Source: a virus. From it: a DNA stretch of 34,944 bases. The notes beneath the pieces are model-generated. The model saw nothing but the letters and a program-made list of their open reading frames with translations, was not told the origin of the DNA and ran no database searches. The stretch is taken from the IMG/VR virus record IMGVR_UViG_3300041407_000225, positions 1-34,944 of that record, one strand, 5' to 3'. The position numbers and the translations under genes were made by a program. Every line of letters begins with the position of its first letter. Within the stretch, counting starts at the first letter, position 1. Of this stretch, positions 23,944-28,628 are shown one piece after another.

Positions 23944-26007
23944 ATGCCATACGCCCCCGAACTTAAAGAAGCCGCCAAACGCCTCTATTTACGCCGCTGC
24001 AAGCCGCGTGAAATTCAGGCGCAGTTATCCCTGCCCAACATCCGGATCGTCTATTACTGGATCCGCCAGGGTGAATGGGACGACATGCTGTCGGACGAAG
24101 AACCGCTGACCGCTGTCAGTCGGCGAATCACTCTGCTCCTGGAGAAAGCCGACAGCCTGACCAAGGGCGAGCTGGACGAACTGGACCGCCTGACCACCGT
24201 CCGCGAACGCCTGGCCAAGCAATGCGCCAAGCCACCCCCGGTGGCGGCTAACGATCCGATCGAGGACGGTGGCCACCGTCGTGATGAGCAGCGCGGCGAG
24301 CGTCGGAAAAAAGGCGATCGCGGGGATAAAGGCGGTAAAAAGCGCCAGAAGCAAGTGAAGAACGACGTCAGCGAACTGACCGAAGTCGACTTCCTGGACA
24401 AGTTCATCAGCAAAATGTACGGCTACCAGAAAGAGCTGTACGCGGCAAAGATCAACCCGCTGACGGCACGGATCCGCAACATCCTCAAAAGCCGCCAGGT
24501 GGGCCTGACCTACTACTTCGCCGGCGAAGCCTTCATGGATGCGGTATTGACCGGTGACAACCAGATCTTCCTGTCGGCCAGCCGCGCCCAGTCCGAGATT
24601 TTCCGCAGCTACATCATCTCGTTTGCCCAGGAATGGTTCGGCCTGGAGCTGACCGGCAACCCGATCGTGCTCAGCAAGGACGGCAAGCCGTGGGCCGAGC
24701 TGCGCTTTCTCAGCACCAACAGCAGCACCGCGCAGGGCCACCATGGCCATGTGTACGTCGACGAATATTTCTGGATCCGCGACTTCGAAAAGCTGAACAC
24801 CGTGGCGAGCGCCATGGCGACCCACAAGAAATGGCGCAAAACCTACTTCTCCACGCCCAGCGCGGTGTCGCACCAGGCTTATCCGTTCTGGATGGGCGAG
24901 AAATTCCGCAACAGCAAGCGCAAGGCGGCAAAGGAGCCGTGGCCGAGCGACAAGCAAATGTCTGCAGGAGCGCTCTGTCCGGACGGCCAGTGGCGCAAGG
25001 TCATCACCATCCTGGACGCGATTGCCGGCGGCTGCGATCTGTTCGACCTCGAGCAGCTGCAGCTGGAGTACGACGAGGACCGGTTCCAGCAGCTGTTCAT
25101 GTGCAAATTCATCGACAGCACACAGAGTGTGTTTGCCCTGGGCGATCTGGAACGCTGTTATTCCGATCTGTCGTTGTGGACCGACTACGACCCGGACGAC
25201 CCGCGACCGTTCGGCAACAGCCCCGTCTGGATCGGCTACGACCCGAGCCGCACCCGGGACGACGCCACCTGTGTGGTCGTCGCGCCGCCGCTCGAGCCCG
25301 AAGGAAAATTCCGGATCCTCGAGAAGCACAGCTGGCGGGGGCAGTCGTTCAAGTACCAGGCCGAGCAGGTCAAGCGGCTCACGGAGCGCTTCAACGTCCA
25401 GCATATCGGGATCGACACCACCGGCATCGGTTACGGCGTGTTCGACCTGGTGCGCGACTTCTACCCGCGTGCCACCTCGATCCATTACAGCCTGGAAACC
25501 AAGAACACCCTGGTCCTCAAGGCGCAGGACACCATCGTGGGCAGCCGGATCGAGTGGGACGCCGGCTGGAACGATATCGCCCAGGCGTTCCTGACGATCA
25601 AGCGCGGGGCCACCAACAGCGGGCAGATCACGTACAGCGCCTCGCGCACGGACGCCACCGGTCACGCCGATATCGCCTGGGCAATCATGCATGCCCTAGC
25701 CAACGAACCCCTCAACACCAACAAGCAGCGGCGTAGTCGCTACGCACTCAGTGGATCCGCAACCTATGGCTCGTCACCAAACAACACAGCAGGAAAAACC
25801 GGCACCAGGGCCCATGCGCGCCTTTTCGTTCGGAGCGCCGGAACAAGTCCTGACCGACAACATCGGCCAGTATCTCGGCGTGTTCGCCAGTCACGACGGT
25901 CGCCTATACACGCCGCCGGTGTCGCGCCAAGGCCTGGCCAAGCTGCTGCGAGCCAACGCGCACCACGGGGCCATTCCCGGTTTCAAGCGCAATCTGCTGC
26001 TGCGTGA
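23944..26007 (+). CDS. Terminase large subunit P (ATPase/nuclease), with odd C-terminal extension
   Basis: The frame is 687 residues. Residues 1-600 are a complete gpP-type large terminase: an N-terminal helix-turn-helix-like part, the Walker A variant KSRQVGLTYYF near 182, Walker B VYVDE near 270, and a RuvC-like nuclease with GYDPS near 430, GIDTTGIG, and a late Asp in HADIAWAIMHAL. P2 gpP is 590 residues. The remaining 87 residues (from about 25745) are Arg/Ala/Pro-rich and overlap the portal gene by about 240 bases in another frame. That tail looks like a shadow translation. The true end was probably near 25750, and a small frameshift or base change may have removed the stop. Confidence 0.9.
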   Translation: MPYAPELKEAAKRLYLRRCKPREIQAQLSLPNIRIVYYWIRQGEWDDMLSDEEPLTAVSRRITLLLEKADSLTKGELDELDRLTTVRERLAKQCAKPPPVAANDPIEDGGHRRDEQRGERRKKGDRGDKGGKKRQKQVKNDVSELTEVDFLDKFISKMYGYQKELYAAKINPLTARIRNILKSRQVGLTYYFAGEAFMDAVLTGDNQIFLSASRAQSEIFRSYIISFAQEWFGLELTGNPIVLSKDGKPWAELRFLSTNSSTAQGHHGHVYVDEYFWIRDFEKLNTVASAMATHKKWRKTYFSTPSAVSHQAYPFWMGEKFRNSKRKAAKEPWPSDKQMSAGALCPDGQWRKVITILDAIAGGCDLFDLEQLQLEYDEDRFQQLFMCKFIDSTQSVFALGDLERCYSDLSLWTDYDPDDPRPFGNSPVWIGYDPSRTRDDATCVVVAPPLEPEGKFRILEKHSWRGQSFKYQAEQVKRLTERFNVQHIGIDTTGIGYGVFDLVRDFYPRATSIHYSLETKNTLVLKAQDTIVGSRIEWDAGWNDIAQAFLTIKRGATNSGQITYSASRTDATGHADIAWAIMHALANEPLNTNKQRRSRYALSGSATYGSSPNNTAGKTGTRAHARLFVRSAGTSPDRQHRPVSRRVRQSRRSPIHAAGVAPRPGQAAASQRAPRGHSRFQAQSAAA

Positions 26008-26805: not shown

Positions 26806-26840
26806 ATTGCCACTACATACTGTGGCAAAATAGTGGCAAT
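26806..26840 (+). repeat. 10-base inverted repeat between portal and activator genes
   Basis: ATTGCCACTA (26806-26815) and TAGTGGCAAT (26831-26840) are perfect inverted copies. A third GTGGCA (26822-26827) lies exactly 11 bases before the one at 26833. The group sits in the 75-base gap upstream of the Ogr-like gene. It may be an operator controlling late-gene activation; no T tract follows, so a terminator is less likely. P2 keeps cos near the portal gene, so a packaging signal is also possible. Confidence 0.6.
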
Positions 26841-26863
26841 TGGCCGACCCTGGGGAGGGATGT

Positions 26864-27112
26864 ATGCGGATTATTTGTAAGTGCGGGCACAAGGGACGGA
26901 TTGCCTCGCGGGAACAACTCTCGAACGACTTCGCGAAGTTGTACTGCCAGTGTCTGGACGCAAAGTGCGGGCACACATGGGTATCAAATCTCACGTTTTC
27001 GCACACGCTAAGCCCGTCGGCCCAGGCCATGGACCGGCTCATTTTCGACAGCCTGAAGAATTTGTCACGGGCGAAACAGCGGGAGCTGTTCGATCAGCTG
27101 GGGGCAGCGTAA
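26864..27112 (+). CDS. ogr: Late gene activator of the Ogr/Delta family
   Basis: This is 82 residues. The Cys4-type zinc site uses Cys5, Cys7, and Cys29/Cys31/Cys36 candidates (IICKCGHKG, LYCQCLDAKCGHTW), then the conserved TFSHTLSP. P2 Ogr is a 72-residue zinc protein that contacts RNA polymerase alpha to switch on late promoters. ATG 26864 follows a GGGGAGGGA ribosome site; a TTG at 26840 lies on the inverted repeat and is unlikely. It should activate the divergent late promoters at 23782-23943. Confidence 0.88.
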   Translation: MRIICKCGHKGRIASREQLSNDFAKLYCQCLDAKCGHTWVSNLTFSHTLSPSAQAMDRLIFDSLKNLSRAKQRELFDQLGAA

Positions 27113-27174: not shown

Positions 27175-27372
27175 TTAGGCGATTGCTTTGTCGATGTCAG
27201 GGCAGTCAGGAGTTTCCAAGAGTATTTCCGACATGCGCCTTACATATTTCTGATCTTCCACAGACATGCGTCGGTACTGGTTGATCAACCGTAGCTCTAA
27301 CGCGCTAAGCGCCTGCCAATCAAATTCACCAGATTCGTTGTAACTGCATTCAAATTTAGCTCGATCCAACAT
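27175..27372 (-). CDS. Small protein resembling the repressor C-terminal segment
   Basis: This is 65 residues with no helix-turn-helix. Residues about 24-53 (LSALELRLINQYRRMSVEDQ and following) align with the C-terminal 30 residues of the repressor encoded next to it (LNPVEAQIIEQYRNIPEDDQ and following), with 12 identities of 30 by eye. ATG 27372 has GGAG nine bases upstream. It lies on the same strand 99 bases downstream of the repressor gene, so it may be co-transcribed. If the shared part is an oligomerisation or cleavage-control segment, the protein could modulate the repressor. Function otherwise unknown. Confidence 0.7.
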   Translation of the reverse strand: MLDRAKFECSYNESGEFDWQALSALELRLINQYRRMSVEDQKYVRRMSEILLETPDCPDIDKAIA

Positions 27373-27471
27373 GCGTACGGCTCCATAGGTGCATGAATGA
27401 ATCGACGTTATCGGGCGAAAACTGTATTGGCAGAGAGAGGAATACAGCTAGTGCTAACAATTCGTTACAAC

Positions 27472-27831
27472 CTAGTTCAAACCGCGAGATTCCATTGCGG
27501 CCATCGCCGACAGCATTCGACGAATCAATTTTTGGTCGTCCTCGGGGATGTTTCGATATTGCTCGATTATTTGGGCCTCCACTGGATTCAGATCACTGAC
27601 CTGTTTTTGGCCGGTAAGGACGAAGACGGTGTCGATGCCAAGACTGGCAACTGCCGCAAGGTAAGCGGTGTCGGGGTTTCGAGCCCCCCGTTCATAGCTG
27701 CCCTGGGTGTTCCGATTCACGCCGCCGACCTGTGCCAAGTCCTCCTGACTCAGACCTAACCTAAGGCGCTCATCACGCAAGCGGTCACCTGCAGAACGTC
27801 CGTCTTCTGGATTTGGTGCACAATTTTTCAA
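27472..27831 (-). CDS. XRE-family phage repressor
   Basis: This is 119 residues. A Cro/C1-type helix-turn-helix occupies about 16-70 (LRDERLRLGLSQEDLAQVGGVNRNTQGSYERGARNPDTAYLAAVASLGIDTVFVLTG), followed by a short helical C-terminus. There is no peptidase domain, so it is not a LexA-type self-cleaving repressor and induction must act differently. The TTG start has GAGGGA four bases upstream. It is divergent from the Cro/Cox-like gene, the standard immunity switch, and is followed by a small gene carrying a copy-like C-terminal segment. Confidence 0.85.
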   Translation of the reverse strand: MKNCAPNPEDGRSAGDRLRDERLRLGLSQEDLAQVGGVNRNTQGSYERGARNPDTAYLAAVASLGIDTVFVLTGQKQVSDLNPVEAQIIEQYRNIPEDDQKLIRRMLSAMAAMESRGLN

Positions 27832-27918: not shown

Positions 27919-28119
27919 ATGCACGCGCCAGTTACACCGGAGCAAGCCCGCGCTGCGCTTGATCGTCAGGGGATGAGCATTGCGGAATTCAGTCGCATCC
28001 ATCAGCTGAACAAAAATTTGGTTAGCGACCTTTTGAATGGTCGTCGGAAAGGTCGACGCGGGGAGGCACATCGAGCTGCCGTATTGCTGGGGATCAAAGA
28101 TGGCGTGATTGCACAGTAA
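27919..28119 (+). CDS. Cro/Cox-like DNA-binding protein
   Basis: This is 66 residues with one helix-turn-helix (SIAEFSRIHQLNKNLVSDLLNGRRKGRRGEAHRAAVLLGIK). It is the first plus-strand early gene, divergent from the repressor, the position of Cro in lambda and Cox in P2. AGGAG at 27904-27908 precedes the ATG by 10 bases. It should shut off repressor synthesis and, if Cox-like, may also direct excision. Confidence 0.85.
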   Translation: MHAPVTPEQARAALDRQGMSIAEFSRIHQLNKNLVSDLLNGRRKGRRGEAHRAAVLLGIKDGVIAQ

Positions 28120-28628
28120 TGGCACGGATCATCAGGGAAAAGCAGAACATGAAAAGCCCCGTTCTAAAGACACGCCGCGAAGTCGTCAGCGCAATCATCT
28201 GCAGCTATCCAGGCGGTCGCGAATGCGCTGCAGCACGCATCGGTTTGGCATTGAAGAAGTTCGATAACCACGCCTACGAAAACAACAACAGCCGGCCACT
28301 GACAGACGCCCAGCTGTACCAGCTCGAGCAGGAAGCAGGCACACAGCATTTCCCGCACTACGTGGCGTCGATGTATGGCGGATTGTTTGTGGCGGTACCG
28401 GATCCCGAAACGAATGACACGGTGGAAATGTACTCACTGTCGGTCCAGGTCTCTGCAAAGCGTGGCTGCGTCGACCAAGAGATCGCCAAGGCTTTAGCCG
28501 ATGGCTGCATCACCGAAGCCGAGGCTGAACACATCCTCAACGCTCACAACCTGCATATGGCCGCACGCCACGCCGAAGTGCTGGCAGCGATTGACCTTTA
28601 CCGCGCCAAAACAGGGCCAGCCCAATGA
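28119..28628 (+). CDS. CII/YmfL-like phage regulatory protein
   Basis: This is 169 residues from ATG 28119, or 159 from ATG 28149. The core resembles the phage regulatory CII (CP76/YmfL) family: VSAIICSYPGGRECAAARIGLALKKFDNHAYENNNSRPLTDAQLYQLEQEAGTQHFPHYVASMYGGLFVAVP. Family members act in the lysis-lysogeny choice or replication control. The ATG at 28119 shares a base with the previous stop (TAATG), which favours coupling, while an AGGGA lies before 28149. It is followed by an ATGA overlap with the next gene. Confidence 0.78.
   Translation: MARIIREKQNMKSPVLKTRREVVSAIICSYPGGRECAAARIGLALKKFDNHAYENNNSRPLTDAQLYQLEQEAGTQHFPHYVASMYGGLFVAVPDPETNDTVEMYSLSVQVSAKRGCVDQEIAKALADGCITEAEAEHILNAHNLHMAARHAEVLAAIDLYRAKTGPAQ

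Follow-up and report, generated by a model that had tools for sequence, protein, structure and literature searches.

A stand-alone homologue of the repressor tail as a probable antirepressor in P2-like Pseudomonas phages

What does a 65-residue protein do when its gene lies directly downstream of a presumed phage immunity repressor, whose C terminus it resembles? The question arises in the window, the whole stretch of 34,944 nt of viral DNA analysed here, for which a preliminary description had proposed a partial duplication of the repressor's C-terminal segment that could tune or titrate the repressor. A literature search for such a repressor/small-gene pair found no description. We report that the two segments are homologous, that they appear to have descended as a pair since an old split, and that the small protein probably serves the phage as an antirepressor, a built-in means of switching prophage immunity off.

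Results

The gene content marks the window as a P2-like Pseudomonas phage or prophage: PHROG and Pfam matches identify genes for baseplate, integrase, portal, terminase and scaffold together with Ogr and CII-like genes, and the last five, being of P2 type, place it in the Peduoviridae (P2-like). The nearest annotated relative of the region is Pseudomonas phage UFJF_PfPro (Peduoviridae), which has the same gene order. The open frames of terminase and portal overlap by ~257 nt (25751-26007); the UFJF_PfPro terminase is likewise 683 aa long, and in that phage's annotation the portal begins after the terminase. The genes of the repressor and the 65-aa protein, both on the minus strand, are flanked by ogr (plus) and by divergent early genes (27919 onwards, plus):

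26840..27112, plus strand: Ogr/Delta-like late activator, convergent neighbour (Pfam Ogr_Delta, E 6.5e-13)
27175..27372, minus strand: 65-aa stand-alone hook protein (open reading frame; PHROG 23693; purifying selection)
27217..27312, minus strand: hook segment of the small protein, residues 21-52, predicted helices 24-35 and 38-53 (motif alignment; AlphaFold2)
27373..27471, minus strand: 99-bp spacer between repressor and small gene (terminator-like site and LexA box not found)
27381..27384, minus strand: Shine-Dalgarno sequence GGAG, 8 nt before the start codon (kept in an alignment of 10 loci including UFJF_PfPro)
27472..27831, minus strand: 119-aa HTH repressor with TTG start, presumed immunity repressor (HTH_3; PHROG 8, transcriptional regulator)
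27499..27594, minus strand: C-terminal hook of the repressor, residues 80-111, homologous to the small protein (alignments; predicted helices 83-93 and 97-115)
27643..27789, minus strand: helix-turn-helix, repressor residues 15-63 (Pfam HTH_31/HTH_3; structural match to P22 c2 and the SinR HTH)
27919..28119, plus strand: small HTH protein in Cox-like position, divergent from the repressor (PHROG 925), where phage Sirocco has its 'cox-like antirepressor'
28119..28628, plus strand: CII-like regulator (Pfam Phage_CP76; PHROG 101)

The 65-aa open reading frame is a real gene, because it is under purifying selection among its relatives (the median dN/dS is 0.27 for the group of the window and 0.14 for that of PfPro, and no value exceeds 1) and its Shine-Dalgarno sequence is conserved; the start codon, too, is kept as far as UFJF_PfPro. 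As described earlier, it follows the repressor gene on the same strand, and a Pfam search detected no DNA-binding domain in it. Its only family match is PHROG 23693, of unknown function, which aligns over nearly its full length (E 1.8e-10, profile positions 1-52 of 59) and also detects the counterpart gene of UFJF_PfPro. AlphaFold2 predicts the two helices with pLDDT 86-93 over residues 21-50. A sequence search of the PDB returned no relative of solved structure, and Foldseek found no match for the hook, two helices being too little for a fold search.

The repressor is short and, by its profile matches, resembles RstR and DicA. It matches HTH_3 in Pfam (E 4.5e-8), and the search found no self-cleavage domain in it, which bears out the earlier reading. 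Both the RstR and the DicA subfamily models match below their cut-offs; that for RstR (NF041951) scores 44.1 bits against a cut-off of 80, though it aligns with residues 15-114. The tail helices are predicted with pLDDT in the 60s. A two-helix hook is predicted in both proteins.

How good is the resemblance between the two? The 12 of 30 shared residues counted by eye were essentially right: BLASTP aligns residues 14-47 of the small protein with the repressor tail at 13/34 identities (E 3e-7). The local alignment score of 67 stands against maxima of 52 and 55 in two sets of 20,000 shuffles, and hhalign joins the two family alignments with 96.3% probability (E 2e-9). When the profile of the small family is run against a whole 5.9-Mb Pseudomonas genome, the neighbouring repressor tail is the second-best match (E 3.9e-5); PHROG 23693, a strong match to the small protein, matches the tail weakly. 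The small protein and the C-terminal segment of the repressor are homologous.

The proposed origin by partial duplication beside the repressor gene did not hold up. A tree of 133 segments separates small proteins cleanly from repressor tails, in two clades with none of the 133 misplaced (support 0.93, the strength of the tree being limited by segments of 31 residues each), and every segment has its nearest neighbour among its own kind. Identity between small protein and tail is 31.2% for cognate and 31.3% for non-cognate combinations. Local duplication is thus unsupported, since the clades are clean and old and cognate identity is no higher than non-cognate identity, and a recent event of this kind was rejected. 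The split between small protein and tail appears instead to be old, with both genes handed down as a pair.

We searched for such pairs in viral contigs and in 399 Pseudomonas genomes and obtained 79, each a small protein with a tail-bearing gene upstream on the same strand. In 70 of them the small protein starts with MLD or MLE and the spacer measures 75-103 bp (median 99). Four small proteins (L065, L067-L069) are listed as unpaired, yet they follow an HTH gene whose tail falls below the motif threshold. Other stand-alone hook proteins do not lie directly beside a tail-bearing HTH gene (L070:10564-10755, L071:1297-1488, L075:1590-1838, L104:1004-1189, L017:1486-1671); at L070, L071 and L075 such a gene lies ~3.5-9 kb away. 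When 369 genomes of the class were scanned with a wider profile of the small proteins, the matches outside were few and weak and lay in open frames of 116-164 aa. Related repressors also occur in the Burkholderia phages KS5 and AP3; a search for a small gene beside them found none. In phages Dobby and Sirocco the repressor is followed by a mini version of 38 aa, whose score is reached by 0 of 2000 shuffles with the wider profile and by 3 of 2000 with the motif profile.

These two Citexviruses also illustrate how the repressors are built: their C-terminal parts share 57/58 residues, their HTH parts, which look unrelated, 23/55, and the 38-aa downstream genes are identical (Dobby/Sirocco, L117:1334-1941 and L118:2378-2999). 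Several further locus pairs have near-identical small genes and HTH parts only 33-46% identical, and the breakpoints within the repressors fall between HTH and tail. In these comparisons, HTH domains are swapped between phages, and the tail and the small gene are kept together. The small protein shows a partial correlation of 0.66 with the repressor tail and 0.03 with the HTH; however, the DNA downstream of the small gene correlates equally well (0.82 versus 0.81). Specific coevolution of small protein and tail was therefore rejected: the downstream DNA also stays with them, so linkage alone can explain their co-retention.

How, then, is the small gene expressed? Between the two genes of the window we sought a terminator, a LexA box and a promoter of its own, and found none; because terminator and LexA box are missing there, repressor and small gene are likely co-transcribed. 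LexA control of the kind known for Tum and GfoA/GftA was not found at the window gene. The spacer contains an inverted repeat, CTGTATT-N12-AATACAG (27422-27447), which is either a chance occurrence or a local operator, because its spacing is wrong for LexA and it is absent from locus L003.

A different arrangement is found in a P2-like subgroup of seven loci (L101, L123-L127, L129), named MEPI after the first residues of its small proteins, which are 50-100% identical to that of L101:

L101:1353-1595 (also L123-L127, L129): LexA-preceded stand-alone hook gene, after a terminator-like stem-loop

In all seven, a perfect LexA box, CTGTAT-N4-ATACAG, lies 35 nt upstream of the small gene; the LexA pattern is found ahead of a start codon in 332/399 Pseudomonas genomes, its backward control in only a few. 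In the upstream sequences the repressor gene is followed by a stem-loop and a run of Ts, reported by the terminator finder at L101, L123 and L126 and visible by eye at L129, where the finder missed it. The layout is that of SOS-induced antirepressors, because the LexA box precedes the small gene after a terminator-like stem-loop; by this sequence arrangement, the small gene of the subgroup is a probable SOS-induced antirepressor. The profile score places the MEPI hooks in the family (33.8 bits, against 9.9 for the highest of 2000 shuffles); in a direct test against their own repressor tail the similarity was not significant, 48/2000 shuffles reaching the score.

Discussion

We lean towards the small protein being a hook-type antirepressor or tuner that would heterodimerise with the repressor tail. 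In the mechanism that we infer, the stand-alone oligomerisation hook would bind its two-helix homologue at the end of the adjacent repressor. Contacts between repressors would give way to a mixed dimer that has a single DNA-binding domain, so that operator binding would be weakened by a logic like that of SinI. In the window phage, the small protein would probably be made from the transcript of the presumed immunity repressor and would set how easily lysogeny is lost; in the MEPI subgroup, a promoter of its own with a LexA box would make it an SOS-induced off-switch. Tail homology, the 79 pairs, purifying selection, the predicted hooks, a short non-cleavable repressor and the LexA box at 7/7 loci all speak for this reading. 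It is the best explanation because a short RstR/DicA-like, non-cleavable repressor is accompanied by a conserved adjoining homologue of its tail that is, in one branch, under SOS control. Against it, neither a LexA box nor a separate promoter was found at the window gene, and an antirepressor made together with its repressor would be odd unless the two differ in stability or translation; the coevolution amounts to no more than linkage, homology to SinI was undetected, and the similarity of hook and tail in the MEPI subgroup is not significant. The heterodimer modelling suggested at the outset likewise gave no confident interface: a tethered AlphaFold model of repressor, spacer and small protein, in which stop codons were modelled as glycine solely to provide a linker, reached a pTM of 0.38 with no usable interface.

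The antirepressor reading has to be weighed against others. The hook could be a co-repressor or stabiliser that supports immunity: as part of repressor multimers it would be required for, or would enhance, the binding of operators, looping or the stability of the repressor. Both proteins of the window type are probably made together in the lysogen, there being neither terminator nor LexA box between the genes, and in phage TP901-1 the Mor protein is antirepressor and corepressor in one (PMC11149083); yet the LexA box of the seven-locus subgroup means that the small gene would be shut off in the lysogen there, and no adjoining small gene was found at the related repressors of KS5 and AP3, which leaves this role unlikely. 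Nor do we put much weight on the idea, less probable still, that the hook is aimed mainly at further regulators with such a tail, encoded by the host or by co-resident prophages, for immunity interference or cross-induction. Many other Pseudomonas regulators, 116-164 aa long, do carry the tail motif, loci with different HTH domains have tail and small gene in common, and Gifsy antirepressors act on non-cognate repressors (PMC3121763), but the small gene of the pairs always follows directly after its cognate repressor. That the small gene is a functionless remnant of a recent local duplication, as adjacent genes of similar sequence might suggest, is extremely improbable: the selection and tree results already contradict it, with dN/dS of 0.14-0.27, a conserved start codon and Shine-Dalgarno sequence, an old and clean split into two clades, and no excess of cognate identity.

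Finally, we would like to place the pair among known systems. The closest parallel in architecture is SinI/SinR of Bacillus subtilis, in which a ~110-aa HTH repressor with a C-terminal two-helix hook is adjoined by a ~57-aa homologue of the hook; SinR 74-111 and SinI 3-39 share the two-helix make-up and hook into a four-helix bundle, and the heterodimer abolishes DNA binding (PMC3163267). However, SinI/SinR is a cellular biofilm switch rather than a phage immunity system, SinI is controlled by Spo0A, and no homology to the SinI/SinR hook was detected (hhalign probability 0.6%; no Pfam SinI match at E up to 1 and no SinI match among PDB sequences). Small antirepressors are known to act on RstR, the DicA/GfoR group and 186 CI (PMC3121763). 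Among these systems, Gifsy GfoA/GftA with GfoR/GtgR of Salmonella likewise combine a small antirepressor with a short, non-cleavable DicA-like repressor, and their operons have a terminator and then a LexA box as in the MEPI subgroup (PMC3121763); the Gifsy antirepressor gene lies outside the immunity region, and the window gene has no LexA box. Tum of phage 186 is a LexA-controlled antirepressor of a P2-family phage (PMC3121763), but at 146 aa and with a DinI-like half it is a different gene. RstC is the antirepressor of RstR in RS1/CTXphi (PMC3121763), and the RstR model covers most of the window repressor, with a score below cut-off; RstC comes from a satellite phage. Going by the titles of the entries, AimX is a small antirepressor bound to the short HTH repressor of phi106 (PDB 9sf2, 9iaq), in Bacillus phages and under arbitrium control. 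The smORF modules of linear plasmid-like phages also encode a small protein that inactivates the phage's own repressor, but they are without homologues, their expression is turned on by a divergent transcription factor, and their targets are cleavable cI repressors (PMC10432266).

The mosaic repressors make a wider speculation enticing, doubtful as it is: a modular immunity switch in which the operator-reading domain is exchanged and hook and anti-hook are kept, the anti-hook being wired to the repressor transcript or to the SOS response depending on the branch. A small protein of this kind could disarm prophages of different immunity that share its hook, and cross-talk among such prophages is what the idea predicts. 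P2-like prophages are common in Pseudomonas. The analysis suggests a function for a phage protein family of unknown function, PHROG 23693. Short repressors without a cleavage domain need another off-switch, and a conserved companion of the tail would be a concrete and easily tested answer.
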